Position numbers and translations under genes: made by a program
Source of the DNA: Nocardioides pelophilus
GTDB taxonomy: Bacteria; Actinomycetota; Actinomycetes; Propionibacteriales; Nocardioidaceae
Direction: 5' to 3'
DNA length: 64,000 bases
Assembly: GCF_014180685.1 (NCBI RefSeq)
Contig: NZ_JACEHF010000001.1
Location: forward strand, 1 to 64,000
Notes under the pieces: generated by a model
The model's database searches: none
What the model saw: only the letters and a program-made list of their open reading frames with translations
Told to the model about the DNA's origin: nothing
Shown here: piece after piece, positions 5,297 to 59,193 of the stretch
Layout: each line of letters opens with the position of its first letter
Position numbering within the stretch: position 1 is the first letter of the stretch

Positions 5297-5311
5297 CACT
5301 GTGTCTCCTGA

Positions 5312-6481
5312 TCAGTACGAGCGCGGCAGGCCGAGGGAGGTCTGCGCGACGAAGTTGAGGACCATCTCCCGGCTGACCGGGGCCGTGCGCATGAGGCGGG
5401 TGACGAACCACAGCTCGGACAGGCCGTACTCGTGGGAGAGGCCGTTGCCGCCGTGGACCTGGATCGCCTGGTCCAGCGCCTTGAGTGCTGCCTCGGCACC
5501 CACGAACTTCGCGATGTTGGCCGCCTCGGCGACCCCGGCGTCACCCTCGTCGTAGAGGACGGCGGCGTGCTGGGTGGCCAGGCGGGCGACCTCGACGTCG
5601 ATGTGCGCGGCTGCGAGCGGGTGCGCGACACCCTGGTGCTGCCCGATCGGGACCGACCAGACCTGGCGGGTCTTCGCGTACTCCGACGCCTTCTCGATCG
5701 CGTAGCGGCCGACACCGGTGGTGATCGCTCCGACCAGGATCCGCTCCGGGTTCAGCGCGGCGAAGACGTGACGCAGCCCCTGCCCGGCCTCACCGACCAG
5801 CGAGTCGGGTCCGACGCGCACGTCGTCGAGGAACACGCTGAACTGCTTGTCCGGGGACACGATCGACGTCGGGATCTTCTGGTAGCTCAGCCCTGGGGCA
5901 TCGGTCGGGACGACGAAGATCGAGAGTCGCTTCTTCTCCGGCGTGGAGAGCTCCTCGTCGCGGGCGACCAGCAGGATCGCGTCGCACTGGTCGACCGCGG
6001 AGATGTAGTACTTCGACCCGCTGATCCGCCACCCGTCGCCGTCTCGGCGGGCCATGGTGGCGACCTCGTGGCTGTTCGAGCCGGCGTCGGGCTCGGTGAG
6101 GCCGAAAGCGATCTTCCGCGTGCCGTCGGCGATGCCCGGGAGCCACTCCTGCTTCAGCTCCTCGGAGGCGTGGGCCGCGAGGACCGACCCGATCATCGCC
6201 GGGGAGATCACCCACACCAGCATCGGCATCCCGTGCGCCGCGAGCTCCTCGACGACGACGACGGCGTCCTGCATGCCACCGCCGCCGCCGCCGTGCTCCT
6301 CGGGCAGGTGGACGCCCAGCAGGCCCGCCTTGCCGAGCTCGCTCCAGAGCTCGGTGACGTCCTCCCCGGCGTGTGATCGCTCGAGGAAGTACTTCTGGTC
6401 GTAGCGGGCGCAGATCTTCGCGACGCTCTCGCGGATGGCGCGGTGGTCCTCGGTGTCGCGGATGAGTCCGGGCACGGTCAC
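5312..6481 (-). CDS. Acyl-CoA dehydrogenase family protein, atypical C-terminus
   Basis: A 389-aa acyl-CoA dehydrogenase. Recognisable are LGVHLPEEHGGGGGGMQD, FGLTEPDAGSNSHEV (FAD loop), QVWSVPIGQHQGVAHPLA and IQVHGGNGLSHEY. The C-terminal segment that normally reads Y/GEGT-EIQ is replaced by LMRTAPVSREMVLNFV, so the catalytic Glu of MCAD-type enzymes is missing. The base may sit elsewhere, or the protein may be a partner subunit or catalyse another reaction. The GTG start at 6481 overlaps the stop of the preceding gene by 4 bp (GTGA), indicating translational coupling to the SnoaL-crotonase fusion. Confidence 0.88.
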   Translation of the reverse strand: MTVPGLIRDTEDHRAIRESVAKICARYDQKYFLERSHAGEDVTELWSELGKAGLLGVHLPEEHGGGGGGMQDAVVVVEELAAHGMPMLVWVISPAMIGSVLAAHASEELKQEWLPGIADGTRKIAFGLTEPDAGSNSHEVATMARRDGDGWRISGSKYYISAVDQCDAILLVARDEELSTPEKKRLSIFVVPTDAPGLSYQKIPTSIVSPDKQFSVFLDDVRVGPDSLVGEAGQGLRHVFAALNPERILVGAITTGVGRYAIEKASEYAKTRQVWSVPIGQHQGVAHPLAAAHIDVEVARLATQHAAVLYDEGDAGVAEAANIAKFVGAEAALKALDQAIQVHGGNGLSHEYGLSELWFVTRLMRTAPVSREMVLNFVAQTSLGLPRSY

Positions 6482-7698
6482 TTCCCTTCGAAGGCGGGGC
6501 GTCGCCGGACGAGGAAGGCCTCGACTGCGGCTCGGGCGTCGTCAGTGCGGCCGGTGGCGGCAAGCGCCTCGATCTCGGCATGCAGCTGCTCGGGCAGGCT
6601 GCGGTCCCAGGACTGGCGCAGCAGCGCGCGCATCTGGGCGAAGGCACGGGTGGGCCCCTCGGCCAGGCCGCGCGCCAGCTCCGCACCGCGCGCCCGGGCC
6701 TCGTCGGTCGGGACGACCTCGTTGACCAGGCCCCAGTCGAGCCCCTCCGCGGCCGTGATCGGCTCGTTGGTGAGGTAGGCCCGCGCGGCGCGGGCGGGAC
6801 CGATCCGCCGGGGCAGGTGCCAGGTGCCGCCACCGTCACCGCTGAGGCCGAGCGCCGCGAACGCGGTCACGAACCGGGTGTCCTCCGCTGCGACGACGAG
6901 GTCGGCGGCGTAGACCAGGCCGAGCCCGCCGCCCACGACCGACCCGTGGGCCACGGTCACGATCGGGGCGTCGAGGCCGGCGAGGACCTCGAGGGCGAGG
7001 TGGAAGGGAGTGACCATCTGGCGCAGTGTGTGACCGAGGTCCGCAGGACCCTCGCGGCCCGGTCGGGCGAAGGCGGCGATGTCGCCGCCCACGGTGAGGT
7101 CTGTGCCGTCGCCGCAGACCAGGACAGCGCGCACGCTGCCGTCACGGGCGATGCGGAGTGCCGCCACGAGGAGCTCGTCGGCGAGCTGCTGGTCGATGGC
7201 GTTGCGAGCGTCGGGACGGTTCAGGCAAAGAGTGGCAACGCCGTCCGCGACCGTCAGTCCCACGGACGTCAAGGGGGCCTCGTCCGCCAGCGCGTCGACG
7301 AAGGCCATCGAGTCCGTAACCTGCGTGAGCCCGGAGATGAGGTCGCCGCGGAACGTGAAGTCGTGGATGAACCACGCATCGACCGGCGCTCCCGCGACAC
7401 GGGACCTGCCCTGGTAGGCGCCGGTCACGTGGAGACGGTCGCCCTCCAGACGGCTGAAGGACTCGGGGACGGGTCGGACCCGCCAGTGCTTGCCGATCAT
7501 GAACCAGACGTCGCGGATCATCGCCGCGGCGCCGTGGTGCTCACCTCCGATGCCGAAGGGGAGCCCGGGCGTGACCCGACCGACGAAGTCCGTGGTGAGC
7601 AACGCCCCGATCGCCGTCTCGTCCCCCACGGCGAGGGCGGCATACAGGCGCTCGACCCGGGCGCGCAGCTGCGGCGTCGACGTCGGCTCGGTGATCAC
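6478..7698 (-). CDS. SnoaL-like domain fused to enoyl-CoA hydratase/isomerase (crotonase)
   Basis: A 406-aa two-domain protein. Residues about 1-145 look like a SnoaL/NTF2-type cone fold (RLYAALAVGDETAIGALL, WFMIGKHW, WFIHDFTFRGDLIS), found in small polyketide cyclases and hydratases. Residues about 150-406 are a crotonase: LCLNRPDARNAID, TVGGDIAAF and VVGGGLGLVYAADLVVAAE. Both Glu residues of classical enoyl-CoA hydratase are replaced, whereas SGDGGGTWHLPR retains the Asp-bearing loop of isomerase-type crotonases such as PaaG. An isomerase role is therefore more likely than hydration. The start is GTG 7698 with no Shine-Dalgarno; a TATATT -10 box ends 7 bp upstream, so the message is probably leaderless. 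Confidence 0.85.
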   Translation of the reverse strand: MITEPTSTPQLRARVERLYAALAVGDETAIGALLTTDFVGRVTPGLPFGIGGEHHGAAAMIRDVWFMIGKHWRVRPVPESFSRLEGDRLHVTGAYQGRSRVAGAPVDAWFIHDFTFRGDLISGLTQVTDSMAFVDALADEAPLTSVGLTVADGVATLCLNRPDARNAIDQQLADELLVAALRIARDGSVRAVLVCGDGTDLTVGGDIAAFARPGREGPADLGHTLRQMVTPFHLALEVLAGLDAPIVTVAHGSVVGGGLGLVYAADLVVAAEDTRFVTAFAALGLSGDGGGTWHLPRRIGPARAARAYLTNEPITAAEGLDWGLVNEVVPTDEARARGAELARGLAEGPTRAFAQMRALLRQSWDRSLPEQLHAEIEALAATGRTDDARAAVEAFLVRRRPAFEGK

Positions 7699-7700
7699 AA

Positions 7701-7715
7701 AATTGAATATAGATT
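7701..7715. promoter_or_regulatory. Operator site 2 overlapping a leaderless-type promoter
   Basis: AATTG-AATAT-AGATT: right half-site perfect, left half 3 of 5. The minus-strand -10 candidate TATATT (complement 7706-7711) lies inside it, and GTG 7698 begins 7 bp after that box, so transcription would start at or next to the start codon. Bound repressor would cover the -10 element of the 7698-2459 operon. Confidence 0.5.
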
Positions 7716-7758
7716 AAATACCGCGAAGATGCCAGAGCGGCGTCCGGTGACCACGCGC

Positions 7759-8949
7759 TCAGCCTCGCTCGTTGCCGACGACGGACACGAAGGAGACACA
7801 CCCGCCCGGGCGCCCACCGAGGTTGTGGGTGAGCGCGAGTCGCGGGTCGGCGAGCTGACGCTGGTCGGCCTCGCCGCGCAGCTGCAGCCATGCCTCGTAG
7901 AGCATCCGCAGGCCACTGGCGCCCACCGGGTGGCCGAAGGACTTCAGGCCGCCGTCGATGTTGACGGGGAGCCGGCCGGCGGCGTCGAAGTCACCGCCCA
8001 GGGCGTCCTTCCAGGCCTGTCCCCGGTCGGCGAAGCCGAGGTCCTCCATGAGGACCAGCTCGGTGGGCGTGAAGCAGTCGTGCACCTCGGCCATCGACAG
8101 CTCCGAGCGCGGGTCGGTGATGCCGGCCTGGGCATAGGCATCCGTTGCGGTGTGCACGACCTCCGGGAACGAGGTGAAGTCGTAGTCGGGGTCGAGCCCG
8201 CCCCGCATCGGACCGGACGCCAGCGACAGCGCCTTCACGAAGATCGGCCGGTCGGTGTAGTCGTAGGCGTCCTCCGCTCGGACGACGAGCGCGGCGGCCG
8301 CGCCGTCGGAGACACCGGAGCAGTCGAAGATGCCGAGCCGACCGGCGACCCGCGGGGCACCGTCGATGGTCTCCCTGGAGACCTCCTTGCGGAACTGCGC
8401 CTTGGGGTTCTGGGCGCCGTTGACATGGTTCTTCCACGCGACGTGGGTCATCGCCTCACGCATGGCGCGCGGGTCGACGCCGTACTTGCTGGTGTAGGCC
8501 GGGTCGAGCAGCGAGAACGCCGCCGGTGCGGTCAACGAGAGCTCGGCAGCGGTGCCGTCGGAGGGCGGGTCGGCCCGGAGGAGCCCGGAGAACCCGGAGT
8601 CCTTGAGCTTCTCCACCCCGACCGCCATCACGCGGTCGTAGGCACCCGACGCGACCGCGTAGCAGGCGTTGCGGAACGACTCCGACCCCGTGGCGCAGTA
8701 GTTTTCCACCCGGGTCACCGGCTTGTAGTCCAGGCCGAGCGGACGGCTCAGGGCCAGCCCCGACTGTCCGGAGTTCAACGTGCCGAGCCAGTAGGCGTCG
8801 ACGTCGTCACGCGCGACGCCGGCCGAGGTGAGGCACTCCCCCACGGCCTCGATCAGGAGGTCGTCGGTGGAGGAATCCCACCGCTCCCCGAACCGGGTGC
8901 ACCCCATGCCGACGATCGCGACGGCGTCCTTGATCCCCTTGCTTGCCAT
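7759..8949 (-). CDS. SCP-x/Ltp-type thiolase
   Basis: A 396-aa thiolase-fold enzyme of the non-decarboxylating lipid-transfer/SCP-x branch. Landmarks are VAIVGMGCTRFGERW, VENYCATGSESFRNA with the nucleophilic Cys, SMAEVHDCFTPTELV, SFGHPVGASGLRM with the catalytic His, and LGGRPGGCVSFV with the second Cys. In steroid catabolism Ltp2 and in ibuprofen catabolism IpfD are related proteins that work with a DUF35 partner to split a side chain from a CoA ester. Here the DUF35-containing gene directly precedes it with a 1-bp overlap (TGATG). That strongly suggests a lyase or thiolase complex acting late in the operon's pathway. Confidence 0.9.
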   Translation of the reverse strand: MASKGIKDAVAIVGMGCTRFGERWDSSTDDLLIEAVGECLTSAGVARDDVDAYWLGTLNSGQSGLALSRPLGLDYKPVTRVENYCATGSESFRNACYAVASGAYDRVMAVGVEKLKDSGFSGLLRADPPSDGTAAELSLTAPAAFSLLDPAYTSKYGVDPRAMREAMTHVAWKNHVNGAQNPKAQFRKEVSRETIDGAPRVAGRLGIFDCSGVSDGAAAALVVRAEDAYDYTDRPIFVKALSLASGPMRGGLDPDYDFTSFPEVVHTATDAYAQAGITDPRSELSMAEVHDCFTPTELVLMEDLGFADRGQAWKDALGGDFDAAGRLPVNIDGGLKSFGHPVGASGLRMLYEAWLQLRGEADQRQLADPRLALTHNLGGRPGGCVSFVSVVGNERG

Positions 8950-10346
8950 CAGCGGACCCGTGCCTTCCAGAAGTAGTTGTGCACGTTCCCGGCGGTGAAC
9001 AACCGCCGGAACACGAGCTCGACCTGCGAACCCACGGCGATGCCGTCCGGATCGGCGTCCGCGACCTCGAGCGTCGTACGGCCACCCCCGGCGAAGTCGA
9101 CGACCACGTCGACCACCGGCGGAGAGGGCGAGAAGGCCAGCCGGTCCACGGTGAACGTGGCGACCGAGCCGCTGAGCTCGGCGCCCGACACCGTCTCCAT
9201 CGCATCAACGGCGCTACAGGCGCGACACACCCGCAGCGGCGGGAGGTGCAGGAAGCCGCACTCGGTGCACCGGCTGCCCGCGAACCCGAACTTCCACTCC
9301 GCGGCGCGCGCCGACGGCGGCCCCGCGGGCCGGTCCGGCTCGGGTCGTCGTGGAAGCTCGCGCTCGAGCAGGCCGCGCCAGGACAGGTACGTCGGGTAGG
9401 GCACCGGGAGGGCACCCTCCAGCTGCGCAGCGACCGGACGGGTGGACCGTCGCGCCGACAGGTGGGCGGTGGTGCGGAGCAGCAGCCCGTCGCACCCGTC
9501 GGTCGCGGACAGCACGAGCACCGTCTCCCCGGGACCGGCGACGTCGAGGACCGCAGCCAGCCCGAGCAGCGGGTCGGCCGCTCCGGAGAAGCCGATGGGG
9601 GAGGTCGTCGAGGACAGGGTCCCCGTGACGAGACTGCCCGCGCGCTTGGTGACGCCGGGGTTGCCACTGGTCACGACGACGTGGTCGGCCGCCGCGAGCC
9701 CGGCCTCCTCGAGCAGCCGGGCCGCGACGGAGCGCACCACGTCGGCGTACCGCTCGAAGCCGAAGCGCTCCTCCCACTGCTCACCGGTGGTCCGGTGCGG
9801 GTCGCGCCAGCGATCGAGCAGCTCGAGGGTCTCGCCGGCGACCCCGAGCACGTCGGCGATCGCCTCGCCCGCACCGAAGTGGACGGCCGCAGCGCCGTCG
9901 CCGCCGGTCCGTTCGTCCAGGGAGACCGGTGGCCTGGTGGCCGCAGCGCCGTCCCCGCCGGTCCGTTCGTCCAGGGAGCCCGGCTTCCCGACGCGCACGT
10001 CGGCAGCGACCACCAGGCCACCGGTCTCCCGGGCGGCGCGGATCCCGGCGAAGGTCGACCGCGCAGACCCGATCAGGTCGGCCGCGGGAACGGCCGAGGG
10101 CAGGCGGAGTGCCGCGTGCACGGCTGCCGCGTTGGTCTTGTCGAGGTACGGCGGGGAGGTGCTCGCCCACCACAGGGATGTCGGCTCGGTGCCGAGGGCT
10201 GCGCGGGCCGCCTCGACCGCCATCGTGGTGGCGTCCTCGTCGAAGGACGCCACCACCCGCCGGCCACGCACGCCGCTGTCGCCCCCCAGCCGGTACGACG
10301 GCAGGTAGGCGCCGTATCCGATCAACCCGACCGCGGGACCGCTCAT
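8949..10346 (-). CDS. Thiolase-like (HMG-CoA synthase-type) domain fused to Zn-ribbon/OB-fold DUF35 protein
   Basis: 465 aa. The N-terminal part (about 1-300) is HMG-CoA-synthase-like (VGLIGYGAYLPSYRL, LWWASTSPPYLDKTNAAA, VLSATDGCDGLLL). By my hand alignment its active-site Cys position is Ala (segment LIGSARSTFAGIRAA), so it is probably not a catalytic condensing enzyme. The C-terminal part has a rubredoxin-like zinc ribbon with paired CxxC motifs (CTEC, CRAC) followed by an OB fold, the DUF35 architecture of ChsH2 and IpfE partners. It is coupled to the SCP-x thiolase downstream and overlaps the upstream thiolase stop by 4 bp. An 18-residue internal duplication (about residues 123-153) is described separately. 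Confidence 0.85.
   Translation of the reverse strand: MSGPAVGLIGYGAYLPSYRLGGDSGVRGRRVVASFDEDATTMAVEAARAALGTEPTSLWWASTSPPYLDKTNAAAVHAALRLPSAVPAADLIGSARSTFAGIRAARETGGLVVAADVRVGKPGSLDERTGGDGAAATRPPVSLDERTGGDGAAAVHFGAGEAIADVLGVAGETLELLDRWRDPHRTTGEQWEERFGFERYADVVRSVAARLLEEAGLAAADHVVVTSGNPGVTKRAGSLVTGTLSSTTSPIGFSGAADPLLGLAAVLDVAGPGETVLVLSATDGCDGLLLRTTAHLSARRSTRPVAAQLEGALPVPYPTYLSWRGLLERELPRRPEPDRPAGPPSARAAEWKFGFAGSRCTECGFLHLPPLRVCRACSAVDAMETVSGAELSGSVATFTVDRLAFSPSPPVVDVVVDFAGGGRTTLEVADADPDGIAVGSQVELVFRRLFTAGNVHNYFWKARVR
9885..9978. repeat. 40-bp direct duplication (9885-9924 / 9939-9978), with an inverted copy at 10008-10030
   Basis: Positions 9885-9924 and 9939-9978 are identical except for one base (54-bp period). 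They encode SLDERTGGDGAAA twice in the DUF35 fusion protein. The 14-bp linker with its flanks (9920-9942) is an inverted copy, 22 of 23 bases, of 10008-10030 in the same gene. Direct copy plus nearby inverted copy is the footprint expected of a template-switching replication error, and 54 bp keeps the frame. Confidence 0.85.
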
Positions 10347-11554
10347 GCGTGCACCCCGCGGAAGAGCGCGGCGATGCCCTGGCCGCCGCCGATGCACATC
10401 GTCTCCAGCGCCAGGCCGCCCTGGCGACGGTCCAGCTCGTGGAGCATCGAGGTGAGGATTCGGACGCCGGTGGCGCCGATGGGGTGCCCGAGGGAGATGC
10501 CGGACCCGTTGACGTTGAGACGATCGTCGACCTCGTCGAGCTCGACCCCCCACCCGGCGAGCACGGCGAGGACCTGCACGGCGAACGCCTCGTTGACCTC
10601 GATCAGGTCGAGGTCGTCGAAGGTGACGCCCGTGCGCGCGAACAGGCGCTGCACGGCGGGGACCGGGCCGATGCCCATGACCGCCGGGTCGCATCCCGCG
10701 GCCGCCCACCCCTCGAACCACGCCAACGGCTCGAGGCCGAGCTCCTCGAGCTTGTCCTCCGCGACGACGAGGCAGGCGGCTGCGGCGTCGTTCTGCTGTG
10801 CGGCGTTGCCGGCGGTCACCGTGCCGCCGGGAGTGAGCGTGCGCAGCCGCGCCAGGGACTCGACGGTGGAGTCGGGCCGCACGCCCTCGTCCCGGTCGAA
10901 GACGACGTCGTCGCCGCGGCGCTGCGGCACCGTCACCGGCACCACCTCCTCGGTGAACGCGCCCGTCTCCCATGCGGCCGCGGCGCGCTGGTGGCTGCGG
11001 GCGGCGAAGGCGTCGGCCTGGTCGCGACCGATGCCGAACTGCTTCGCCAGGTTCTCCGCGGTCTCGATCATGCCGCTGATCGGGCCGAACCGGTCCTCGG
11101 GCTGGGAACGCTCGCGGCCGCGGTCCAGGCGGTCGTAGAGGGTCTGGTTCCCCGAGCGCGAACCCCAGCGGGCGGTGGTGGTGTAGTGCTCGATGTTGCT
11201 CATCGACTCCACACCGCCGGCGATCACCACGTCGGCGGCGCCCGTCTGCACCGTCATCGCCGCGTTGATCACGGCCTGCAGGCCGCCTCCGCAGCGGCGG
11301 TCGACCTGGAAGCCGGGCACCTCGATCGGGAGGCCGGCGGCGAGCGCTGCCCAGCGGCCGATGCACGGCGCCTCGGAGTTGGCGTAGGACTGGGCGAAGG
11401 CCACGTCCTCGACCACGCCGGGGTCGATCCCCGAGCTGTCCACGACAGCCTTGATGATGGAGGCCGCAAGGTCCTCGGCCGGGACCGGGCGGAGCGAGCC
11501 GCCGAAGGTGCCGACGGCGGTCCGCATGGGCTGGACGATGGCGACGCGTCTCAT
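10343..11554 (-). CDS. Acetyl-CoA acyltransferase (thiolase)
   Basis: A 403-aa biosynthetic/degradative type thiolase, which cleaves 3-ketoacyl-CoA with CoA. All catalytic elements are present: FQVDRRCGGGLQAV (nucleophilic Cys), VNGSGISLGHPIGATGVR (His) and METMCIGGGQGIAAL (second Cys). VVIAGGVESMS is also typical. ATG 11554 is the start. The stop overlaps the next gene's ATG by 4 bp. It is likely to release acetyl- or propionyl-CoA in the final steps of the pathway. Confidence 0.94.
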   Translation of the reverse strand: MRRVAIVQPMRTAVGTFGGSLRPVPAEDLAASIIKAVVDSSGIDPGVVEDVAFAQSYANSEAPCIGRWAALAAGLPIEVPGFQVDRRCGGGLQAVINAAMTVQTGAADVVIAGGVESMSNIEHYTTTARWGSRSGNQTLYDRLDRGRERSQPEDRFGPISGMIETAENLAKQFGIGRDQADAFAARSHQRAAAAWETGAFTEEVVPVTVPQRRGDDVVFDRDEGVRPDSTVESLARLRTLTPGGTVTAGNAAQQNDAAAACLVVAEDKLEELGLEPLAWFEGWAAAGCDPAVMGIGPVPAVQRLFARTGVTFDDLDLIEVNEAFAVQVLAVLAGWGVELDEVDDRLNVNGSGISLGHPIGATGVRILTSMLHELDRRQGGLALETMCIGGGQGIAALFRGVHA

Positions 11555-11575
11555 GGTGCTCCTGTCGTTGCGGGC

Positions 11576-12832
11576 TCAGGCCGAGGCGAGCACCCGGTCG
11601 GCGCTCGCCTCCAGCTCGGCCCGGTGGGCGGGGTGCGCGACGGCGATCATCCGCTCGACGCGCTGGGTCAGGGTGGTGCCGCGGAGGTCGGCGACGCCGT
11701 GCTCGGTGACGACCAGGACACCTTCGGCGCGAGGTGTCGACACGGGCCCGGAGAGGGTGCTGACGATCCGGCTGTGGCCGTGGGCCGTCGACGGCAGGGC
11801 GACGATCGGCAACCCCCCGGGCGAACGGGCGGCCCCGCGGAGGAAGTCGACCGCGCCGCCGACCGCACCGACGTAGCGACCACCGGCGACCTCGGCATTG
11901 ACCTGACCGGTCAGGTCGACCTCGATCGCGGAGTTGACGGCCACGAGCTGGTGGGACGTCGCGAGCACCTCGGGGTCGTGGGTGTAGCTGGTGGAGCGCA
12001 GCTGCACGGCAGGGTTGCGGTGTGCCCAGCGGAAGAGGTCGGCAGTGCCACCGAGAAGGCCGCCGACCGCCACCCCCGGGTCGTGGGTCTTCCGCGCCCC
12101 GGTCGCGACGCCCGACTCCACCAGCCGCATCGCGGTGTCGTTGAGGATGCCCGAGTGGATCCCGAGGTCGCGGTGGTCGACGAGCGCCGCCAGGACCGCT
12201 TCGGGCAGGGCGCCGATGCCGAACTGCAGGGTCGCTCCGTCCGGGACGAGACGGGCGACCCGCCGGGCGGTGGCGGCGGTGTCCTCGCCGATCGCCGGGG
12301 TGAGGAGCTGGCCGGGGGTGCGGGACGTGTGGATCGCGGCGGTCCACTGGTCGGCTGTGAGCGTGCGGGCTCCGAAGGTGAACGGCACCTGGTCGTTGAC
12401 CTCGGCGATCACGACCCGGGCGGTGTCGAGCGCTGCGGAGAAGTAGTCGTCGGCCAGGCCCAGGCTGTGCCGACCCTGCTCGTCGGGGGACGAGACCTGC
12501 ACGAGCACCACGTCTGCCTCGAGCGCGCCCTGGCTCAGCAGCGCCGGCAGGGCGGAGTAGTGGACCGGCCACACGTCGAGTCGTCCCGCGGCGTGCAGTG
12601 CTGCGTTGGTGCCGGCACCGCAGTAGGAGTGCACCGACAGCGTCGAGGGCACGGTCCGGGCGGTGACTGCCGACTCCGCGGGGATGCCGACGAAGCAGCG
12701 CAGCGACCCGATCCGATCGGCCTGCTGCACGAGGAGCTCGGTGAGCGTGGCGGGCTCGGCGCAGGCCTGGCCCCACGTGACCGTGTCACCCGGCCGGATG
12801 AGTCCGGCGAGGTCGAGACCCGCAGAGGTCAC
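11576..12832 (-). CDS. Acetyl-CoA hydrolase / CoA-transferase family protein
   Basis: About 418 aa. The sequence has the two-domain layout of class I acetate/4-hydroxybutyrate CoA-transferases (LTELLVQQADRIGSLRCFVG, VSSPDEQGRHSLGLA, LQFGIGALPEAVLAALVDH, GVLVVTEHGVADLRG). It probably moves CoA between a carboxylate and an acyl-CoA, conserving the thioester of the pathway intermediate, though hydrolase activity is possible. GTG 12832 overlaps the upstream stop by 4 bp (GTGA) and is preferred; GTG 12841 would add three residues. It is co-operonic with the Rieske dioxygenase. Confidence 0.88.
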   Translation of the reverse strand: MTSAGLDLAGLIRPGDTVTWGQACAEPATLTELLVQQADRIGSLRCFVGIPAESAVTARTVPSTLSVHSYCGAGTNAALHAAGRLDVWPVHYSALPALLSQGALEADVVLVQVSSPDEQGRHSLGLADDYFSAALDTARVVIAEVNDQVPFTFGARTLTADQWTAAIHTSRTPGQLLTPAIGEDTAATARRVARLVPDGATLQFGIGALPEAVLAALVDHRDLGIHSGILNDTAMRLVESGVATGARKTHDPGVAVGGLLGGTADLFRWAHRNPAVQLRSTSYTHDPEVLATSHQLVAVNSAIEVDLTGQVNAEVAGGRYVGAVGGAVDFLRGAARSPGGLPIVALPSTAHGHSRIVSTLSGPVSTPRAEGVLVVTEHGVADLRGTTLTQRVERMIAVAHPAHRAELEASADRVLASA

Positions 12833-13107
12833 CCACGCCACCGTTCGTGCGAGGGGTCGAGCAGCTGGGTCAGGTGCCCGTCCTCGAGCCAGACGATCGA
12901 CTCGAGCTCGAGCGCGTCGAGGAACCGCACCCGTCCGGTCCGGAGGTCCTCGACCCGCAGCCGCACGGAGTTCCCGCTCTGGTCGAGGCGCACGGACACC
13001 GAGGCGAACTCGCTCTCGACCACGGCTCCGACACCGGGCACCGCGAGCGGTCCGGTCGGCTCCTCGAAGACGACGTCGTGGCGTTGCGGGTCAGGTGTGG
13101 TGGCCAT
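12829..13107 (-). CDS. Small unknown protein, 92 aa, in the dioxygenase operon
   Basis: I do not recognise the family. The protein starts MATTPDPQRHDVVFEEP, has no Cys, no signal peptide and no membrane segment, and is rich in acidic residues and beta-prone stretches (ASVSVRLDQSGNSVRL, ALELESIVWLEDGHL). ATG 13107 overlaps the dioxygenase beta stop by one base, and the stop overlaps the CoA-transferase start. It is therefore a genuine operon member translated in lockstep with its neighbours. An accessory or stabilising role for the dioxygenase is a guess from position only. Confidence 0.75.
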   Translation of the reverse strand: MATTPDPQRHDVVFEEPTGPLAVPGVGAVVESEFASVSVRLDQSGNSVRLRVEDLRTGRVRFLDALELESIVWLEDGHLTQLLDPSHERWRG

Positions 13108-13664
13108 CAGATCAGGAACCCCAGCGTCGGTAGCGGACGCTCGTTGTCGACGAGCACGACCTTCTTGTAGACGAGCCGGATCTGCCCGTCCACCTGGCGG
13201 AGCCGGTAGGTGACCCGCCCGCCCCACAGCTCGTTGCCGCGCGGCCGCGACTCGAGTGCCATGAAATTCGCACCCACCTCGAGGTCGACCCCACCGGCGG
13301 CGTTCTCACGACCGCCGATCAGCTCCACGTTGCCGATGATCCGGCGCAGGTTCGACGGCGGTGCCTGCGCGTAGCGCTTGCCGGTCTTGACCTGCTTCAT
13401 CCGGGTCGAGATCCGGTTGCGGTTGTCGAAGATGACCGAGACCGTGCTGCGCGGGTGGTCGCCCTCGCCGTCGACGGGTACCCAGTAGAGCGCGTCGTTG
13501 GTCCACAGCGCCTCCCAGCCGTCGTAGTCGTTCTCGTCGGCCAACCGGGCTTCCCGGTAGAGGAACTGCTCGACCTCTCGCACCTCCCACCCCTGCGGGA
13601 TGGCGACGAGCTCCCCTGCGTCGGGACGCGGCGGCAGCTCGGTCAGGGCGTTCACGGTCACCAT
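13107..13664 (-). CDS. Aromatic-ring-hydroxylating (Rieske) dioxygenase, beta subunit
   Basis: A 185-aa small subunit with the SnoaL-like cone fold of ring-hydroxylating dioxygenase beta chains. Landmarks are QFLYREARLADENDYDGWEALW, DALYWVPV, VIFDNRNRISTRM and VYKKVVLVDNERPLPTLGFLI at the C-terminus. It packs with the alpha subunit into an alpha3beta3 hexamer and has a structural role. ATG 13664 overlaps the alpha stop by one base. Confidence 0.94.
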   Translation of the reverse strand: MVTVNALTELPPRPDAGELVAIPQGWEVREVEQFLYREARLADENDYDGWEALWTNDALYWVPVDGEGDHPRSTVSVIFDNRNRISTRMKQVKTGKRYAQAPPSNLRRIIGNVELIGGRENAAGGVDLEVGANFMALESRPRGNELWGGRVTYRLRQVDGQIRLVYKKVVLVDNERPLPTLGFLI

Positions 13665-14938
13665 CAGTCCTCGGCCTCCATCAGTGACTTGTAGTGGGTC
13701 CAGAACCCGCGCATGCCGGTCTCGTCCGTCGCGGCACCGATGGTGAAGCCGGCCGCGTCGACGCTCTCCCGACCCAGGCCTCGGCGCACGTCGAGCCACT
13801 CCGGGTCAGCCATCTCGACGCCGCGCTGGTTGCGCTCGTACATCTCGGTGTCGTCGGCCAGCAGCATGCCGGCAGGACCGACCGAGCCGATCGACTGCGA
13901 CACCATCCTCTGGTTGAGCTCGTGCCCACCGGCCATCTGCACCGCGGTGGCGTACTGCACGCACTCCCCCACCGCGACGGGCTGGATGTTGAAGACCTGG
14001 ATCTCGGCGATGAACAGGTTGGGGAAGATCATCACATGGGGCGCACCCTCGATCATCCGTCGCTGGGCGTCGTCGCCGTAGGCCTCGTGCATCGCAGCCA
14101 CGTAGCCGGGGACCCGGTCGGGGGTGGTGCCGAACCAGCGCATCGGCTCGGCGAAGCTGCGGAACTCCGGTCGCAGGTCGTTCTCGCTGTGACCGTCGCC
14201 CAGGTTGCGGGTCACGGCCGTCGAGTTGTCGCTGTAGAGCGCGCCGATCGGGCTGCCGGTGACGCCGAAGATCGAGCCGTGGACGAACTGGGGGTGGTAG
14301 CCGTCGGTCTCGTTCTCGGCGAGGAACTTCCAGTTGGATCGCGTCCGGTGGCGCAGCCACCCGGCGTCGAGCTTTACCTGACCGTCCGGCGAGAGCCCGA
14401 CCAGGCGGTCGATCTCACCCTTGGCGGCACCGAGGTGCTCGTCCAGTGACGGCCCCTCGGCTGCCAGGCTGCCGAAGACGAAGCCGTGGTAGGAGTCCAC
14501 GCGAGCGACCTTGCCCATGCCGAGCTCGAGCTTGTTCTTGCCGCCGTACCCCTTGTTGTAGGGGTAGCCCAGCAGTTCGCCGGTGTTGCGGTAGGTCCAC
14601 CCGTGGTAGGGGCAGCGGAACGAGCTGGAGTTGCCGGCCTTGTCGTCGCACACCTGCAGCCCGCGGTGGGCGCACCGGTTGATCAGGAGGTGCAACTCGC
14701 CGTCCTTGTCGCGGGTCATCACGACGTCCTGGTCGGCGAGTTGCTTGCGCACGTAGTCGTTCGGCTGCGGGACCTCGCTCTCGTGGCCGACGAAGACCCA
14801 GGTTCGGTGCCAGATCTTGCGCAGCTCCTCGGCGAAGATCGACGGGTCGGTGTACAGCGAGCCGTGCACGCGTGCAGGCTGGACGAGCCGGTCGAAGCGG
14901 CTGCCGCCCTCGATCTCGGGGGGGAGCAGAGCAGTCAT
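13664..14938 (-). CDS. Rieske non-heme iron dioxygenase, alpha (catalytic) subunit
   Basis: 424 aa. The Rieske [2Fe-2S] domain has C89-x-H91 and C109-x2-H112 (CAHRG, CPYHGW). The mononuclear iron site is D212-x2-H215-x4-H220 (NETDGYHPQFVH), with a further acidic ligand expected near the C-terminus. The enzyme inserts both atoms of O2 into a substrate, typically forming a cis-dihydrodiol on an aromatic ring. Being sandwiched between an acyl-CoA ligase (4-bp overlap) and CoA-handling enzymes suggests that the substrate is a CoA thioester, as proposed for ibuprofen-CoA dioxygenase IpfAB. Electrons could come from the ferredoxin/reductase pair at 2.5-3.9 kb. Confidence 0.95.
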   Translation of the reverse strand: MTALLPPEIEGGSRFDRLVQPARVHGSLYTDPSIFAEELRKIWHRTWVFVGHESEVPQPNDYVRKQLADQDVVMTRDKDGELHLLINRCAHRGLQVCDDKAGNSSSFRCPYHGWTYRNTGELLGYPYNKGYGGKNKLELGMGKVARVDSYHGFVFGSLAAEGPSLDEHLGAAKGEIDRLVGLSPDGQVKLDAGWLRHRTRSNWKFLAENETDGYHPQFVHGSIFGVTGSPIGALYSDNSTAVTRNLGDGHSENDLRPEFRSFAEPMRWFGTTPDRVPGYVAAMHEAYGDDAQRRMIEGAPHVMIFPNLFIAEIQVFNIQPVAVGECVQYATAVQMAGGHELNQRMVSQSIGSVGPAGMLLADDTEMYERNQRGVEMADPEWLDVRRGLGRESVDAAGFTIGAATDETGMRGFWTHYKSLMEAED

Positions 14939-16713
14939 CGTCGTTCTCCTTCGAGCGGGGCGGGTTGGGCGACCAGCTCGACGAGCCGGAACTTCTGGAC
15001 CTTGCCGGTCGCGGTGGTCGGGAGCTTGAGTGAGTCGAGGAACTCCACGCGCTTGGGCACCTTGAAGCGGGCGAGGTGCTCCTTGGCGTAGGCGATGACG
15101 CCCTCCGCGTCGAGACCGTCTCCGTCCGGGCCTGGGGCACGGACGACCACGGCGCAGCCGATCTCGCCCCACCGGTCGTCGACGACGCCGACGGCGTAGA
15201 CCTGGCTGATGCCGGGGTGGGCTCCGAGGACCTCCTCGACCTCCTTCGGCATCACCAGTTCACCACCGGACTTGTAGACCTCCTTGCTGCGGCCGGTGAG
15301 GACGAGGTAGCCGTCCTCACGCACCCGCCCGAGGTCCCCCGAGTGGAGCCAGACCGTGCCGTCCGGGCCGGCGTGCAGCGCGGCTGCGGTCTCCTCTGGC
15401 TTGGCGTGGTAGCCGAGCATCGTGGTGGGGCCGGACGAGGTGAGCTCGCCCGCCGTGCCGTCCGGCAGCACCTCGCCGCTGAGCGGGTCGACCGTGCGGT
15501 AGACGCACAGCGCGGCCAAGCCGGTGGCACCGTGCTCGCTTCCCGGCACACCCGCCGAGCCGGCCAGCTTCGGCCGGCCCACCGTGGTCGAGGTCAGTGC
15601 CAGCTCGTCCTCCGGAAGGCTGAGCGTCATCGCTCCGCCGCACTCGGTCATCCCGTAGCCGGTGACGATCTCACTGACGCCGAAGTCGCGCTCGACCTGC
15701 TCCCACAGCCACACCGGAGCGGGCGCGGAGCCGCACAGGATCGCGCGCAGGCTGGACAGGTCGGCCTCGTGCCGCGAGGTGCTCTCCACCATGGCCACCG
15801 CCATGGTCGGGACGCACAGCATGTCCGTGGCGCGGTGCTTCTCGACCGCGCCGAGATAGGCCTCGGCGGTGAAGGACGGCAGCATGATGACCGCTCCGCC
15901 GACGTACGTCGCGGACAGGAGGCCCTCCACGTAGCCGAACATGTGGTAGCAGGGCAGCGAGAAGAGGATCCTCCGCCCGTCCTCGTAGGCCCGGGTCAAC
16001 GCCGAGGCGTAGCCGGTCCGGAGCACTGCGTCGTGCGTGACCTGGACGCCCTTGGGGGAGCCGGTGCTACCCGAGGTGTAGAGCAGGTCGGAGATGTCGT
16101 CCGGGCGGTGACCGGGGTCCGCCGATCCCGGGTGCTGCTCCCCGAGCTTGGCGAGCGCGGTGCCGGTGAATGCTCCGGGGCGAGGGGCATCCCCGGGTCG
16201 TTCGACGAGCACGACGTGACGCAGCGCGTCAGGCGCCCGGTCCCCGGCCGGCGGTCGCTCGGGGAAGTCGGGGGTGTCCCAGCCCGGGACGATCTTGTCG
16301 AGCATGCCGGCGTGGTCGAGGTTCTGGAATCCGGCGTTGGTGATCAGCACCGTGCAGTCGGACTGCTTCAGCACGTAGCGCAGCTCGTCGATGCGGTAGA
16401 GGAAGTTGAACGGGATCGCGACCGCTCCTGCCCGGGCGATCGCGAACTTCATCGTGACGAACTCGGCATGGTTGGCCATCAGCAGGCCGACGTGGTCGCC
16501 CTTGCGGACGCCCAGGGTGGCGAGGCCGTCGGCGAGGCACCGAGACTCGGCTGCGACCTCGGCGTAGGAGAGGACGCGTTCGTCCGTGACCACCAGGTCG
16601 CGCTCGGGGAACTGAGCAGCGCAGACGTCGAGCCAGGCGTCGAGAGTCCGCGGGGTCCAGGTGCTGAAGCGCTCCTGCAGGGCAGTGCGGCGCTCGGCGA
16701 TGTCGTAGGTCAC
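14935..16713 (-). CDS. AMP-forming acyl-CoA synthetase/ligase, first gene of the dioxygenase operon
   Basis: A 592-aa ANL superfamily enzyme that activates a carboxylic acid with ATP and CoA. Visible motifs are LLYTSGSTGSPKGV (P-loop), VTGYGMTECGG, WLHSGDLGR and the C-terminal catalytic Lys in TATGKVQKFR. GTG 16713 is chosen because AAGGAGGTG sits 5 bp upstream; the open frame to 16770 would cross the promoter. Promoter and operator lie directly upstream (16731-16770). As first gene of an operon leading into the dioxygenase and DUF35/thiolase genes, it most likely activates the pathway substrate itself. Confidence 0.93.
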   Translation of the reverse strand: MTYDIAERRTALQERFSTWTPRTLDAWLDVCAAQFPERDLVVTDERVLSYAEVAAESRCLADGLATLGVRKGDHVGLLMANHAEFVTMKFAIARAGAVAIPFNFLYRIDELRYVLKQSDCTVLITNAGFQNLDHAGMLDKIVPGWDTPDFPERPPAGDRAPDALRHVVLVERPGDAPRPGAFTGTALAKLGEQHPGSADPGHRPDDISDLLYTSGSTGSPKGVQVTHDAVLRTGYASALTRAYEDGRRILFSLPCYHMFGYVEGLLSATYVGGAVIMLPSFTAEAYLGAVEKHRATDMLCVPTMAVAMVESTSRHEADLSSLRAILCGSAPAPVWLWEQVERDFGVSEIVTGYGMTECGGAMTLSLPEDELALTSTTVGRPKLAGSAGVPGSEHGATGLAALCVYRTVDPLSGEVLPDGTAGELTSSGPTTMLGYHAKPEETAAALHAGPDGTVWLHSGDLGRVREDGYLVLTGRSKEVYKSGGELVMPKEVEEVLGAHPGISQVYAVGVVDDRWGEIGCAVVVRAPGPDGDGLDAEGVIAYAKEHLARFKVPKRVEFLDSLKLPTTATGKVQKFRLVELVAQPAPLEGERR

Positions 16714-16731
16714 GCCGCACCTCCTTTCTTT

Positions 16732-16746
16732 AATCTTGATTAGATT
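16732..16746. promoter_or_regulatory. Operator site 3 (perfect AATCT-N5-AGATT)
   Basis: AATCT-TGATT-AGATT, a perfect inverted repeat that extends to TAATCT/AGATTA (16731-16747). It lies between the dioxygenase operon start and the stop of the upstream ligase gene, and covers the -10 box of the promoter listed next. It is the cleanest copy of the repeated motif. Confidence 0.7.
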
Positions 16747-16770
16747 ATCTGGTCGTGGGGGATCTGACAA
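16742..16770 (-). promoter_or_regulatory. Sigma-70-type promoter of the ligase-dioxygenase operon
   Basis: On the minus strand: TTGTCA (complement 16765-16770), a spacer of exactly 17 bp, and TAATCT (complement 16742-16747), then a leader ending in AAGGAGG before GTG 16713. The -10 lies within operator site 3, which predicts repression by occlusion. Confidence 0.65.
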
Positions 16771-16776: not shown

Positions 16777-18399
16777 TCAGTCGGGTGTGACGTCACGCAG
16801 CGCGCTGGTGCCGACCAGGTCGAGGAGCTTGAACTTCTGGATCTTGCCGGTGGGGGTGGCGGGCAGCTCGCCGGCGACGAACCAACGGCTGGGCACCTTG
16901 TATGGCGAGAGCCGTTCACGGCAGTGGGCGGTCAGCGACTCGACCAGGGCCGCAGGGTCCGCGGCCATGCCCAGCTCTCGCACGTGCACGGCGGCGCCGA
17001 CGACCTCCCCCATCCGCTCGTCCGGGACTCCGAACACCGTTGCGCCGAGGACGGCCGGGTGCTCTGCCAGGCAGGACTCGATGCTGGCGGGAGCGATGTT
17101 CTCGCCGCCCCGGATGATCAGATCCTTGAGCCGACCCGTCAGCGTGATGTAGCCCCGCTCGTCCATCGAGCCCAGGTCCCCGGTGTGCACGAAGCCGTCA
17201 GCGTCGATGGTCCTCGCGGTCGCCTCGGCGTCGTGGAGGTACTCGACCAGCTGCTGGTAGCCACGTGCGCAGATCTCGCCGGCGCGGCCGAGCGGCACCA
17301 CCTCGCCGGTGGCCGGGTCGACGATCTTGACGTCCACCTGGGGAAGGGGGTGACCCACGGTGCCCAGCTTGTCCTCACGTGAGTCACTCGGCCGGGTGGC
17401 GGTCAGCACGGGCGCCAGCTCCGTCTGACCGAAGACGTTCGTGACCGCGGCGCCGAAGGTCTGCTCGGTCGCCTCGATCATCGCGGCGGGTACGTTGGAG
17501 GCCCCACCCAGCGCCACCGCCAGCCGCGGCGCGGGCTCGGACGAGGTCCGCTGCGCCTCCAGCAGTGCCCCGAGCACGGCGGGCACGAAGAAGAGGACCT
17601 CGACGTTCTCGCGGCGCATCGTCTCCAGCACCGGCCCGGGCGCGAACTGCTCGACCAGCACCTCGGTCCCGGCCAGCCACAGCGGGCCGAGGGTGCCGAT
17701 GACGCAGGCCGCGGTGTGGAACATCGGCAGGGGGTTGATGGTCACGGCGCCGGCCGGCATGTCGACGTAGTCCATGGTGAGCTTGGCGACGTTGACCAGC
17801 GAGCGGTGCCGGAGCAGCACACCCTTCGGGTTGCCGGTGGTGCCGGAGGTGTACTGCAGCATGACCGGCAGGTCGGCGTCCGTCGGCGCAGCGGCGAGGA
17901 CTGCACGATCGGGCTCCTCCGCGCGCCACTGATCACGCTCCGAGAGGCTGACCAGCCGCAGGTCCGGCCGGGTCGCGGCGACCTCACGAGCCACCGAGGC
18001 CATGTCGTAGTCCCGGCTGCGGTCGGCGTGCAGCAGGACCGTGCACCGGGAGTGGTCCACGGCGTACTCCAGCTCAGGCTTGCGGAGCACGGGGTTGAGC
18101 GCCACCAGGACCACGCCCGCAAGAGCGGCTCCGTGCTGGATGAGCACCCACTCAGCGACGTTCGGCGCCCAGAGTGCTACGAAGTCACCAGGGGCCGCCA
18201 GCCGCCGCAACCCGGTCGCGATGCGCTGGGCCTCCTCGTGCAGCTCGCCGTAGCTCAGTCGCACCTCGGTCCCGTCGCCGTGCCGGTTGGCCACCAGGGC
18301 CAGGCGGTCGGGGTAGCGGTCGGCCCGGTCGGCGAGCAGACCCGGGATGGTGAGGTCACTCAGCGCCACGCTGTTGTCGGCGGTCAGGTACGAGGTCAT
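16777..18399 (-). CDS. Fatty-acid/acyl-CoA ligase (AMP-binding)
   Basis: A 540-aa ANL enzyme, distinct from the ligase at 14935. Motifs are LQYTSGTTGNPKGVLL, NVFGQTELAPVL, FVHTGDLGSMDERGY, LIIRGGENIAPA and the Lys-bearing TPTGKIQKF. LRKPELEYAVDHSRCTVLLHA and the overall length fit medium/long-chain acyl or aryl ligases. It is probably the last gene of the leftward operon starting at MaoC (21988); it may activate a second acid, such as a released side chain or ring fragment. The 11-bp gap to the preceding crotonase supports cotranscription. Confidence 0.92.
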   Translation of the reverse strand: MTSYLTADNSVALSDLTIPGLLADRADRYPDRLALVANRHGDGTEVRLSYGELHEEAQRIATGLRRLAAPGDFVALWAPNVAEWVLIQHGAALAGVVLVALNPVLRKPELEYAVDHSRCTVLLHADRSRDYDMASVAREVAATRPDLRLVSLSERDQWRAEEPDRAVLAAAPTDADLPVMLQYTSGTTGNPKGVLLRHRSLVNVAKLTMDYVDMPAGAVTINPLPMFHTAACVIGTLGPLWLAGTEVLVEQFAPGPVLETMRRENVEVLFFVPAVLGALLEAQRTSSEPAPRLAVALGGASNVPAAMIEATEQTFGAAVTNVFGQTELAPVLTATRPSDSREDKLGTVGHPLPQVDVKIVDPATGEVVPLGRAGEICARGYQQLVEYLHDAEATARTIDADGFVHTGDLGSMDERGYITLTGRLKDLIIRGGENIAPASIESCLAEHPAVLGATVFGVPDERMGEVVGAAVHVRELGMAADPAALVESLTAHCRERLSPYKVPSRWFVAGELPATPTGKIQKFKLLDLVGTSALRDVTPD

Positions 18400-18410: not shown

Positions 18411-19202
18411 CTAGGGTGTGGCCGGCCCGAATACGGGGCGACGTTTCTCGGCAAATGCGGACACGCCTTCGGCGAAGTCGTCGCTGTCCCAGAGCAGGGT
18501 CTGGTTGCGCACTTCGAGGTCGAGCACGGCAAGCGGGTGACGCGGCTCGCCGGAGAGCATCTGCTTGATGGCGCCGAGAGCGAGCGGCGGCCCGGCGGCG
18601 AGGGTTGCGGCGTCCTCGAGAGCAGCCGCCAGGGCCGTCCCGGGGTCGACGACACGGTCGACGGGACCGATGACCCCGGCTTCGGCACCGCTGATACGAG
18701 AGCCCAGCATCAGCATCTGCCGCGCCCGGGGGGCACCGACGCGAGCAGGCAGCGAGGCGAAGATCCCCATGTCGCCGGCGAGTCCGACTCCGGTGAAGGT
18801 CGTGGCGAGGGTGGCGTCGCTCGCTGCCACCACGCGGTCGCAGGCGAGGGCGAGTGCCACGCCGGCCCCGAAGGCCGGGCCTTCCACCGCCGCGATCACC
18901 GGCTTGGGGGTGTGCCAGAGCGCGCGAATGATCCGCTGCGCCGCCTGGGCCCGCGGGGTGGTCTCGTGCCGCGGCCGGCGCTGCATCGTCGAGATGTCGC
19001 CACCGGAGCAGAACGCGCCCTCCGCCCCGGTGAGGACCACTGCGCGGACCGTGGCGTCACCGTCCGCAGCCTCGATCGCCTCGGCCAGGGCGTAGCGCAG
19101 CGACAGGTCGATCGCGTTGCGCAGGTGCGGCCGGTTCAGCGTGATGACACGGACCGCACCCCGGTCCTCGACCAGAACCGGAATCTCCACCGCGGCGCTC
19201 AC
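18411..19202 (-). CDS. Enoyl-CoA hydratase/isomerase family protein (crotonase 1)
   Basis: A 263-aa crotonase: VITLNRPHLRNAID, FCSGGDISTM (oxyanion hole) and VEGPAFGAGVALALACDRVVAA. Relative to mammalian enoyl-CoA hydratase, both catalytic Glu positions are non-acidic (GAGVALAL and TTFTGVGL). Straight hydration is therefore unlikely, and isomerase or hydrolase chemistry is possible. The GTG 19202 start overlaps the stop of crotonase 2 (GTGA). It is one of three consecutive crotonases that differ in active-site residues. Confidence 0.9.
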   Translation of the reverse strand: MSAAVEIPVLVEDRGAVRVITLNRPHLRNAIDLSLRYALAEAIEAADGDATVRAVVLTGAEGAFCSGGDISTMQRRPRHETTPRAQAAQRIIRALWHTPKPVIAAVEGPAFGAGVALALACDRVVAASDATLATTFTGVGLAGDMGIFASLPARVGAPRARQMLMLGSRISGAEAGVIGPVDRVVDPGTALAAALEDAATLAAGPPLALGAIKQMLSGEPRHPLAVLDLEVRNQTLLWDSDDFAEGVSAFAEKRRPVFGPATP

Positions 19203-22006: not shown

Positions 22007-22031
22007 TAGATTTTCAAATCTAAAGTAGATT
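22007..22031. promoter_or_regulatory. Operator site 4 (two overlapping palindromes) between MaoC and thiolase
   Basis: AATCT-AAAGT-AGATT at 22017-22031 is a perfect match to the shared motif. It overlaps a second perfect palindrome, TAGATTT-tc-AAATCTA (22007-22022). The half-sites also read TAGATT on both strands (22026-22031 plus; complement 22017-22022), plausible -10 boxes for the divergent thiolase and MaoC genes. The double site could bind two repressor dimers. Confidence 0.7.
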
Positions 22032-22088
22032 ATGTTGCAACACCGTTCCCGTCAACGTTCGCCCGCGCGCCCGACCCAGGAGGAACCC

Positions 22089-27172: not shown

Positions 27173-27195
27173 GTTCTCCCCTAAGGTAGTCTCGA

Positions 27196-27210: not shown

Positions 27211-27221
27211 AAGAATAGGTC

Positions 27222-37251: not shown

Positions 37252-37254
37252 CGA

Positions 37255-39044: not shown

Positions 39045-39054
39045 GACGCGCCTC

Positions 39055-59183: not shown

Positions 59184-59193
59184 CCGGGTAGTC

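Follow-up and report, generated by a model that had tools for sequence, protein, structure and literature searches.

The aerobic box pathway opens a coenzyme A (CoA)-bound ring after its epoxidation by a di-iron enzyme. The phenylacetate (paa) pathway likewise opens a CoA-bound aromatic ring aerobically after epoxidation by a di-iron enzyme, and the accessible part of PMC13186573 offers as a precedent the rearrangement of the ring epoxide, after CoA activation, and its hydrolytic cleavage by PaaG/PaaZ. In the ibuprofen (ipf) system, ipfABDEF encode Rieske dioxygenase alpha and beta subunits, a CoA ligase, and a thiolase-fold protein with a DUF35 partner. The same components are found in a stretch of 64,000 nucleotides of Nocardioides pelophilus (contig NZ_JACEHF010000001.1, positions 1 to 64,000; 'the window'), in a block of eight genes at 7759-16713 that a sequence-only reading had taken for an ipf-like pathway, which dearomatises an aryl- or alicyclic-alkanoic acid and removes its side chain.

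With about even confidence, the block and the genes around it are regarded here as a TetR-controlled regulon that would degrade the CoA thioester of a hydrophobic, ring-bearing acid, by way of Rieske oxygenation, crotonases and thiolases. The route is taken to start as in ipf and to go on as in paa, the opened ring then being degraded by beta-oxidation. What the sequence shows directly is the gene content, its conservation, the states of the motifs and the sharing of operator-like sites. Every enzyme family of the cluster is known already, except for a 92-amino-acid protein (D92); the new part is the combination of enzymes and the regulon, of which no description for this cluster was found in the accessible portion of the open-licence PMC literature.

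The eight-gene block and the probable regulon around it

All eight genes are intact minus-strand frames, in the order and place previously claimed. Adjacent genes overlap by 1 or 4 bases, the single exception being, with the listed starts, a 21-base gap, so the tight coupling already noticed is borne out. The enzyme calls rest on Pfam and NCBIfam matches (the beta and CoA-transferase queries carried one additional N-terminal codon in the searches), and these agree with the earlier calls for the ligase, both Rieske subunits, the CoA-transferase, the thiolase and the SCP-x thiolase. The label 'thiolase-like/DUF35' for the seventh gene is rejected, because family match, alignment and fold search all indicate a part like 3-hydroxy-3-methylglutaryl-CoA synthase (HMGS) instead of a thiolase-like one. 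The genes are as follows.

14935-16713, minus strand: lig1, AMP-dependent acyl-CoA ligase (GTG start; PF00501/PF13193; 29% identical to IpfF)
13664-14938, minus strand: Rieske dioxygenase alpha subunit (PF00355/PF00848)
13107-13664, minus strand: Rieske dioxygenase beta subunit (PF00866; 46% identical to IpfB)
12829-13107, minus strand: D92, 92-amino-acid protein whose family has no Pfam entry (genomic link to Rieske alpha/beta genes of actinobacteria)
11576-12832, minus strand: acetyl-CoA hydrolase/CoA-transferase family protein (PF13336, AcetylCoA_hyd_C; alternative GTG start at 12841)
10343-11554, minus strand: thiolase F (PRK06205 subfamily, 662.7 bits against a cut-off of 551)
8949-10346, minus strand: G, HMGS-like without the catalytic Cys, plus DUF35 (zinc ribbon and OB fold)
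7759-8949, minus strand: H, SCP2-type thiolase with Cys, HDCF and GHPVGASG intact (PRK06157, 617 bits against a cut-off of 403)

The alpha subunit carries Rieske and iron-ligand motifs (CAHRG, CPYHGW, DGYHx4H and LLADD, whose ligand roles we take as given), and with both alpha motifs and a beta partner the pair belongs to the Rieske alpha/beta ring-hydroxylating dioxygenases.

The gene block is thus real, but its limits are too narrow. Considering the gene order and the shared operator-like sites, the unit reaches from about 0.5 to 29.8 kb, and about 26 neighbouring genes, apparently co-regulated, would form one catabolic unit with the eight-gene block at its middle. For comparison, loci were picked by their alpha subunit, with identity thresholds of 45% and 40%; gene counts use the 29 of 33 actinobacterial loci that are at least 20 kb long, and 13 proteobacterial loci. 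Most loci extend only about 10 kb beyond alpha, and absences are therefore upper bounds. L024 has the same alpha as L023, and the alphas of L096 and L100 are close; all four loci are counted separately.

A sign of co-regulation is the palindrome TAATCT-N5-AGATTA, which occurs with at most two mismatches in five copies in the window, against 0.06 expected. Four of the five directly precede genes of the set, fronting six transcription units, and the fifth (49939) does not. The four, and a weaker site, are:

16731-16747: operator-like site before lig1 (0 mismatches; 17 bp upstream of lig1)
22016-22032: operator-like site between MaoC and thiolase (1 mismatch)
27195-27211: operator-like site between SDR2 and MBL (1 mismatch)
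538-554: operator-like site before ACAD3 (2 mismatches; the TetR1 gene is the downstream neighbour of ACAD3)
7700-7716: weak operator-like site before SnoaL-crotonase (3 mismatches)

The 33 same-type actinobacterial loci hold 38 palindrome matches, in 21 loci, against 1.2 expected under a first-order Markov model; two of the 38 overlap another match (L025, L034). The palindrome lies 7-32 bp before lig1 in 11 actinobacterial loci, the starts being estimated from tblastn, and before the ferredoxin gene in two Rhodococcus plasmids, as judged from annotated starts. Further copies precede SDR or SnoaL-crotonase genes, the SDR being a different one from SDR1 and on the opposite strand. At the position that matches the weak SnoaL-crotonase site of the window, a site with two mismatches stands in L033, L057 and L069. 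As controls, five Ipf-type loci hold one match (0.4 expected), which is no enrichment, and 32 other Rieske loci (500 kb) hold four; for these and for the proteobacterial loci no expectation was computed. Orthologues of TetR1, at 45% identity or more, occur in 16 of the 29 actinobacterial loci, and this co-conserved protein is the likely repressor of the regulon, presumably acting at the palindrome. The predicted repressor-operator pair gives a handle for finding the inducer.

The remaining genes of the unit are listed below.

603-1760, plus strand: ACAD3, acyl-CoA dehydrogenase (family search)
1795-2442, plus strand: TetR1 (PF00440; orthologue in 16/29 loci)
2459-3739, minus strand: ferredoxin reductase, Pyr_redox_2 and Reductase_C (ATG start chosen, after the TTG of the listed open reading frame)
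3742-3933, minus strand: 63-amino-acid single-cluster ferredoxin, not Rieske-type (PF13370)
3962-5299, minus strand: CrtI/amine-oxidase-like FAD oxidoreductase (found in 12/29 loci)
5312-6481, minus strand: ACAD1, acyl-CoA dehydrogenase (Pfam)
6478-7698, minus strand: SnoaL-like domain fused to a crotonase (PF00378; SnoaL_2 match under its cut-off)
16777-18399, minus strand: lig2, second acyl-CoA ligase (family search)
18411-19202, minus strand: ECHa, crotonase (best family oxepin-CoA hydrolase, alternative type, 210.2 bits, cut-off 300)
19199-20002, minus strand: ECHb, PaaG-like crotonase (neither canonical Glu present; Asp149 invariant)
19999-20790, minus strand: ECHc, crotonase (Glu120, Asp138 and His140 invariant, with His in place of the second canonical Glu)
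20787-21539, minus strand: SDR1, FabG-like dehydrogenase (family search)
21536-21988, minus strand: MaoC-like dehydratase (PF01575)
22089-23243, plus strand: thiolase (PRK07801, 666.5 bits against a cut-off of 591)
23251-24408, plus strand: ACAD2, acyl-CoA dehydrogenase (family search)
26309-27172, minus strand: SDR2, SDR-family dehydrogenase (in 15/29 loci)
27222-28226, plus strand: MBL-fold hydrolase (PF00753)
28250-29815, plus strand: acyl-CoA carboxylase beta subunit, propionyl-CoA-carboxylase (PCC)-like (PF01039; related to solved beta chains of PCC and acetyl-CoA carboxylase)

Inside this region lies an IS481-like transposase (24812-25810). Rhodococcus opacus PD630 carries the same cluster type, with a ferredoxin similar to the 63-amino-acid one.

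Kinship with the ibuprofen system

The Ipf reference is plasmid pIBU218 of Rhizorhabdus wittichii MPO218, with IpfD and IpfE assigned by gene order; the accessible part of PMC11347016 confirms which accessions belong to IpfA and IpfF. Among the characterised enzymes found, IpfA and IpfB are the closest to the alpha (42% identity) and beta (46%) subunits. Among named sequences, the closest alpha subunits come from Nocardioides, and orthologues with 67-92% identity are found in numerous actinobacteria, for the most part among similar neighbours, so that the cluster is not a product of chance. When 100 alpha subunits were placed in a quick tree, 51 window-type rows formed a branch of their own (SH-aLRT 99), which lies outside the IpfA branch itself but beside Ipf-type rows (MPO218, DK17, Streptomyces NBC_00564, Paraburkholderia BN5 and Chelativorans) and two uncultured lineages. 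The 58 rows taken together have a support of 99, and the order inside this group is not settled by the quick tree. Since the window-type clade stands beside the Ipf-type branches, the oxygenase step may well resemble that of IpfAB.

The other Ipf proteins are more distant. A CoA ligase does stand alongside the Rieske genes, as the Ipf pathway demands, but lig1 has only 29% identity to IpfF, and H has 29% identity to IpfD over 214 amino acids. The ipf logic of the sequence-only reading therefore survives for the oxygenase and the ligase, and fails for the half that removes the side chain, for which H had been cast as an IpfD-like enzyme. The nucleophilic Cys, HDCF and GHPxGASG are present in H and its 25 orthologues (26/26), whereas IpfD, which has YDAF, and its four Ipf-type relatives (5/5) show YDxF and have neither the nucleophilic Cys nor the GHP motif. 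The count for H omits eight weak rows (24-29% identity) from other locus types, none with Cys at the column, although one of them (L051) has a Cys one column further on.

A similar distinction is drawn for steroid aldolases in the accessible part of PMC12329534, where YDHF or YDCY without Cys marks the aldolase state and HDCF with Cys the thiolase state; Sal is said there to have Gly at the place of the nucleophile. H and its partner resemble Ltp2-ChsH2 and Sal-Shy in that a thiolase fold goes with a DUF35 protein, but the residue test that picks out steroid aldolases (YDHF/YDCY) fails for H. Because HDCF with Cys is the thiolase state under these rules, the chemistry of H should be thiolysis (retro-Claisen) and not an Ltp2-like retro-aldol reaction. 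Aldolase chemistry was accordingly dropped as a candidate, in view of the complete thiolase residue set. The residue comparison (Cys/HDCF against YDxF) also offers a simple means of telling ipf-like operons from look-alikes in genome screens for drug degradation.

The window also differs from the ipf loci in gene content. DUF35 is a separate protein there but is fused to the HMGS-like domain in the window, and no HMGS domain, crotonases or SDR1 were found beside IpfD. At 40% identity or more, ECHa, ECHb, ECHc, SDR1 and the HMGS-like-DUF35 protein were not found in the five Ipf-type loci, and the operator is not enriched in them. Diverged homologues of D92 occur in two of the five, those of DK17 and Streptomyces.

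Actinobacterial operons of truly ipf-like look do exist, and are distinct from the type seen in the window. Such operons are found in Rhodococcus DK17 pDK3 (L097:9997-15391) and Streptomyces NBC_00564 (L103:7947-11763); both encode IpfD-type (YDPF) proteins, with nearby genes annotated for homoprotocatechuate-like lower steps.

G, the partner of H, is described as an archaeal-type HMGS-like domain (99.9 bits to PRK04262, under the cut-off of 244), to which a ChsH2-type zinc ribbon and OB fold are fused. The catalytic HMGS Cys, its column placed by alignment, is missing from G in 30/30 sequences, so that the domain is catalytically dead by its residue state. The four zinc-ribbon cysteines are retained in 26/30 and lost in four proteobacterial copies. 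The structural model (pLDDT 82.2) has 6esq_I, 9skh, 5mg5/5m3k and 9vbo as top fold matches, and the fold is nearest to the archaeal complex, PhlA and MucABC. PhlA likewise lacks the HMGS Cys, and PhlC keeps its cysteine (Cys88), according to the accessible part of PMC6392133. Since G lacks the HMGS Cys as PhlA does and H keeps the thiolase Cys as PhlC does, G and H are, as judged from residue states, built like PhlABC, with a Cys-bearing thiolase, an HMGS-like part without Cys and DUF35. They differ from it in that the A and B parts are fused into one polypeptide, within a catabolic gene set.

The window copy of G has an 18-amino-acid (54-bp) in-frame tandem duplication (about 9885-9981) that is absent from the 29 other sequences. 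It falls in a low-confidence stretch of the model and is either a recent change or an assembly error.

Companions of the oxygenase

Among the 29 actinobacterial loci, alpha and beta are present in 29, D92 in 28, ECHb in 27, ECHc in 26, ECHa in 23, thiolase F in 22, lig1 in 20, SDR1 in 17 and the CoA-transferase family protein in 12. The steadiest companions of the oxygenase are therefore D92 and the atypical crotonases. The 13 proteobacterial loci have alpha and beta in 13 and ECHb in 11, and in 10 of them an SDR adjoins alpha, beta and ECHb (two of these from annotation). Several carry an alpha/beta-hydrolase or a CaiB-type CoA-transferase, and those of Xanthobacter and Azorhizobium also hold a G homologue.

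A D92 profile, built from copies beside Rieske genes, was searched against 296 whole actinobacterial genomes and gave 26 matches in 20 genomes (E ≤ 1e-6), the window included; the D92 loci surveyed are window 12829-13107 and L119-L144. In 24 of the 26, both alpha and beta genes lie within about 1.5 kb (two of the matches are neighbours in one frame, in G180, and one has a stop, in G331). This genomic linkage suggests that D92 probably serves the Rieske dioxygenases of actinobacteria as an accessory or regulatory subunit. Pfam gave no significant match for 29 D92 members. D92 has no relative among solved structures, and the fold search with its model (pLDDT 76.6; five strands, three helices) gave chance-level matches only. 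By these sequence and model comparisons, D92 founds a previously undescribed protein family, tied to Rieske dioxygenases.

The crotonases are PaaG-like in the case of ECHb and ECHa, by family and structure comparison, and their active sites are altered. Asp149 of ECHb is invariant in 41/41, without either catalytic Glu; Glu120, Asp138 and His140 of ECHc are invariant in 28/28, and Asp144 of ECHa in 25/25. The positions of the canonical crotonase Glu residues are presumed here from the alignment. The solved relatives of ECHb include an enoyl-CoA hydratase (149 bits), an enoyl-CoA hydratase/carnithine racemase set (148 bits), 1,2-epoxyphenylacetyl-CoA isomerase (115 bits) and 4-chlorobenzoyl-CoA dehalogenase (109 bits).

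That no ring-cleavage dioxygenase is visible had been noted before and is confirmed, six ring-cleavage dioxygenase queries giving nothing in the window. When the same six queries were run over 42 of the 47 window-type loci (at least 12 kb), matches were obtained in 2/42, one of them cut by the locus edge; the intradiol query was a putative one, the longest suitable frame of L106. Matches were found in 3/5 Ipf-type loci, but the queries were taken from those loci and this is no fair comparison. A search for HpaD in four genomes gave no match, which is weakly informative.

Proposed pathway and alternatives

From these observations we infer the substrate class, the regiochemistry, the ring opening, the order of steps and the pairing of TetR1 with its operator. 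A ligase would form the CoA thioester, and the Rieske dioxygenase, with its own ferredoxin and reductase, would dioxygenate the substituted and the adjacent ring carbon, as IpfAB does. The SDR and the altered-site crotonases, the PaaG-like ECHb first, would then oxidise, rearrange and hydrolyse the dearomatised ring, in place of a ring-cleavage dioxygenase. Acyl-CoA dehydrogenases, crotonases, SDR2 and thiolases would shorten the chain, and H, on a PhlA/PhlB-like scaffold of dead HMGS and DUF35, would cleave a bulky beta-keto thioester thiolytically. The PCC-like beta subunit, which follows the MBL gene behind an operator-like site, weakly hints at propionyl-CoA among the products and perhaps at a methyl-branched substrate. 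The two mce operons and the P450 genes of the window are a weak hint that the substrate is greasy.

Such a route would share with the paa hybrid pathway the CoA ligation, an oxygenase, a PaaG-like crotonase, and the logic of beta-oxidation and thiolase. It differs in having a Rieske oxygenase where paa has the PaaABCE epoxidase, and there is no PaaZ-like gene among the window genes examined. The PaaA/PaaC epoxidase family (PF05138) has two matches in the genome, both on contig C307 and neither on the contig of the window. Phenylacetate degraded via paa was not kept as the substrate of the cluster, the genome having separate paa genes. If true, Rieske-based opening of a CoA-bound ring without a ring-cleavage dioxygenase would be a further solution beside paa and box, and Mycobacterium, Rhodococcus, Nocardia, Streptomyces, Bradyrhizobium and Xanthobacter carry unassigned Rieske/crotonase clusters whose role it would account for.

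BadI hydrolyses the ring of 2-ketocyclohexanecarboxyl-CoA, and the BenD step is decarboxylating. A more specific version of the ring opening, which is tentative and rather unlikely, may be framed on this background. The Rieske enzyme would form a 1,2-cis-diol of an aroyl- or arylalkanoyl-CoA, in which the thioester stops decarboxylation and the ipso hydroxyl stops rearomatisation. SDR1 would oxidise the second hydroxyl to give a cyclic beta-keto thioester, and ECHb or ECHc would hydrolyse the ring in a BadI-like manner. The module would then be the alpha-beta-ECHb core, usually with an adjoining SDR, common to actinobacteria and proteobacteria, and D92 would be a new accessory protein of Rieske dioxygenases.

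Several points weigh against the regulon and its ring opening. The action of the Rieske enzyme on a CoA thioester is proposed solely by analogy with Ipf. Among the best 25 matches listed, no crotonase reaches the cut-off of a ring-opening hydrolase family. G and H, each in 23/29 actinobacterial loci, lie outside the constant core, and the loci are related, so that counts are not independent. The palindrome pattern was derived from the window itself, the Markov background ignores AT-rich promoters, and the 13 proteobacterial window-type loci (250 kb) hold two matches, the operator being unconserved there. The second of the 2/42 ring-cleavage matches, in L052, is to a BphC homologue that lies some 7 kb away from alpha. 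The genome moreover holds ring-cleavage candidates elsewhere, and the ring product could therefore go to a catechol route: mhp-like hydroxyphenylpropionate meta-cleavage genes lie on the window's contig at about 86-108 kb (L115, L116), a BphC homologue on C46 (which may be the steroid enzyme HsaC), a partial intradiol match on C328, and paa genes on C307.

An ipf-like scheme, in which H and DUF35 cleave the C-C side chain of a dioxygenated arylalkanoyl-CoA and the catechol is cleaved elsewhere, could make use of those meta-cleavage genes, and the closeness of alpha and beta to IpfA and IpfB, with a ligase and DUF35 present, speaks for it. The PCC-like subunit behind an operator-like site fits a release of propionyl-CoA, and in MPO218 growth on ibuprofen is reduced when a gene for propionyl-CoA carboxylase carries an insertion, according to the accessible part of PMC9195938. 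Nevertheless, the scheme is distinctly unlikely, considering that the thiolase residues are found in 26/26 for H and in 0/5 of the Ipf-type proteins, that the crotonases, SDR and acyl-CoA dehydrogenases are conserved yet unnecessary for it, and that ring-cleavage genes seldom adjoin the cluster (2/42 loci). It is also highly improbable that the cluster is biosynthetic, with G and H acylating a ring in the manner of PhlABC and the Rieske enzyme tailoring the product. The fold and residue states of G and H given above agree with this, but around the block lie genes for acyl-CoA dehydrogenases, crotonases, thiolases and ligases under a shared operator pattern, no scaffold-making synthase is seen among the window genes examined, and G and H are each missing from part of the loci (present in 23/29).

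The substrate may instead be an aromatic or partly aromatic terpenoid or a steroid-like lipid, in whose breakdown the Rieske enzyme would act late, on the ring acid that remains after P450 and beta-oxidation. This alternative, which is unlikely, departs from the regulon reading mainly by naming the substrate. None of the mce or P450 genes of the window has an operator-like site (at most two mismatches) in front, and the proteobacterial loci have other ABC transporter genes instead. In favour of the alternative are the two mce (lipid importer) operons and the P450 genes of the window, the mce operon and P450 near the cluster on a Mycobacterium avium plasmid, the P450 and SCP2 on a Pseudonocardia plasmid, and a weak resemblance of the window P450s to terpenoid oxygenases, among others, far under the cut-offs.

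The M. avium plasmid is pP7a (L102), from a sputum isolate, where a cluster of the same type has an mce operon, a P450 and an SCP2 gene in its vicinity. In the window, one mce gene set (MlaD proteins, MlaE and ABC genes) lies at 30669-39951 and a second (MlaD proteins) at 57831-63501, and P450 genes are found at 42297-43778, 44560-45771 and 53555-55273. The frame at 29953-30561 matches only the final part of the secretory lipase (LIP) profile and is possibly a truncated gene. A protein with an Abi_alpha (abortive infection) domain is encoded at 55107-55925.

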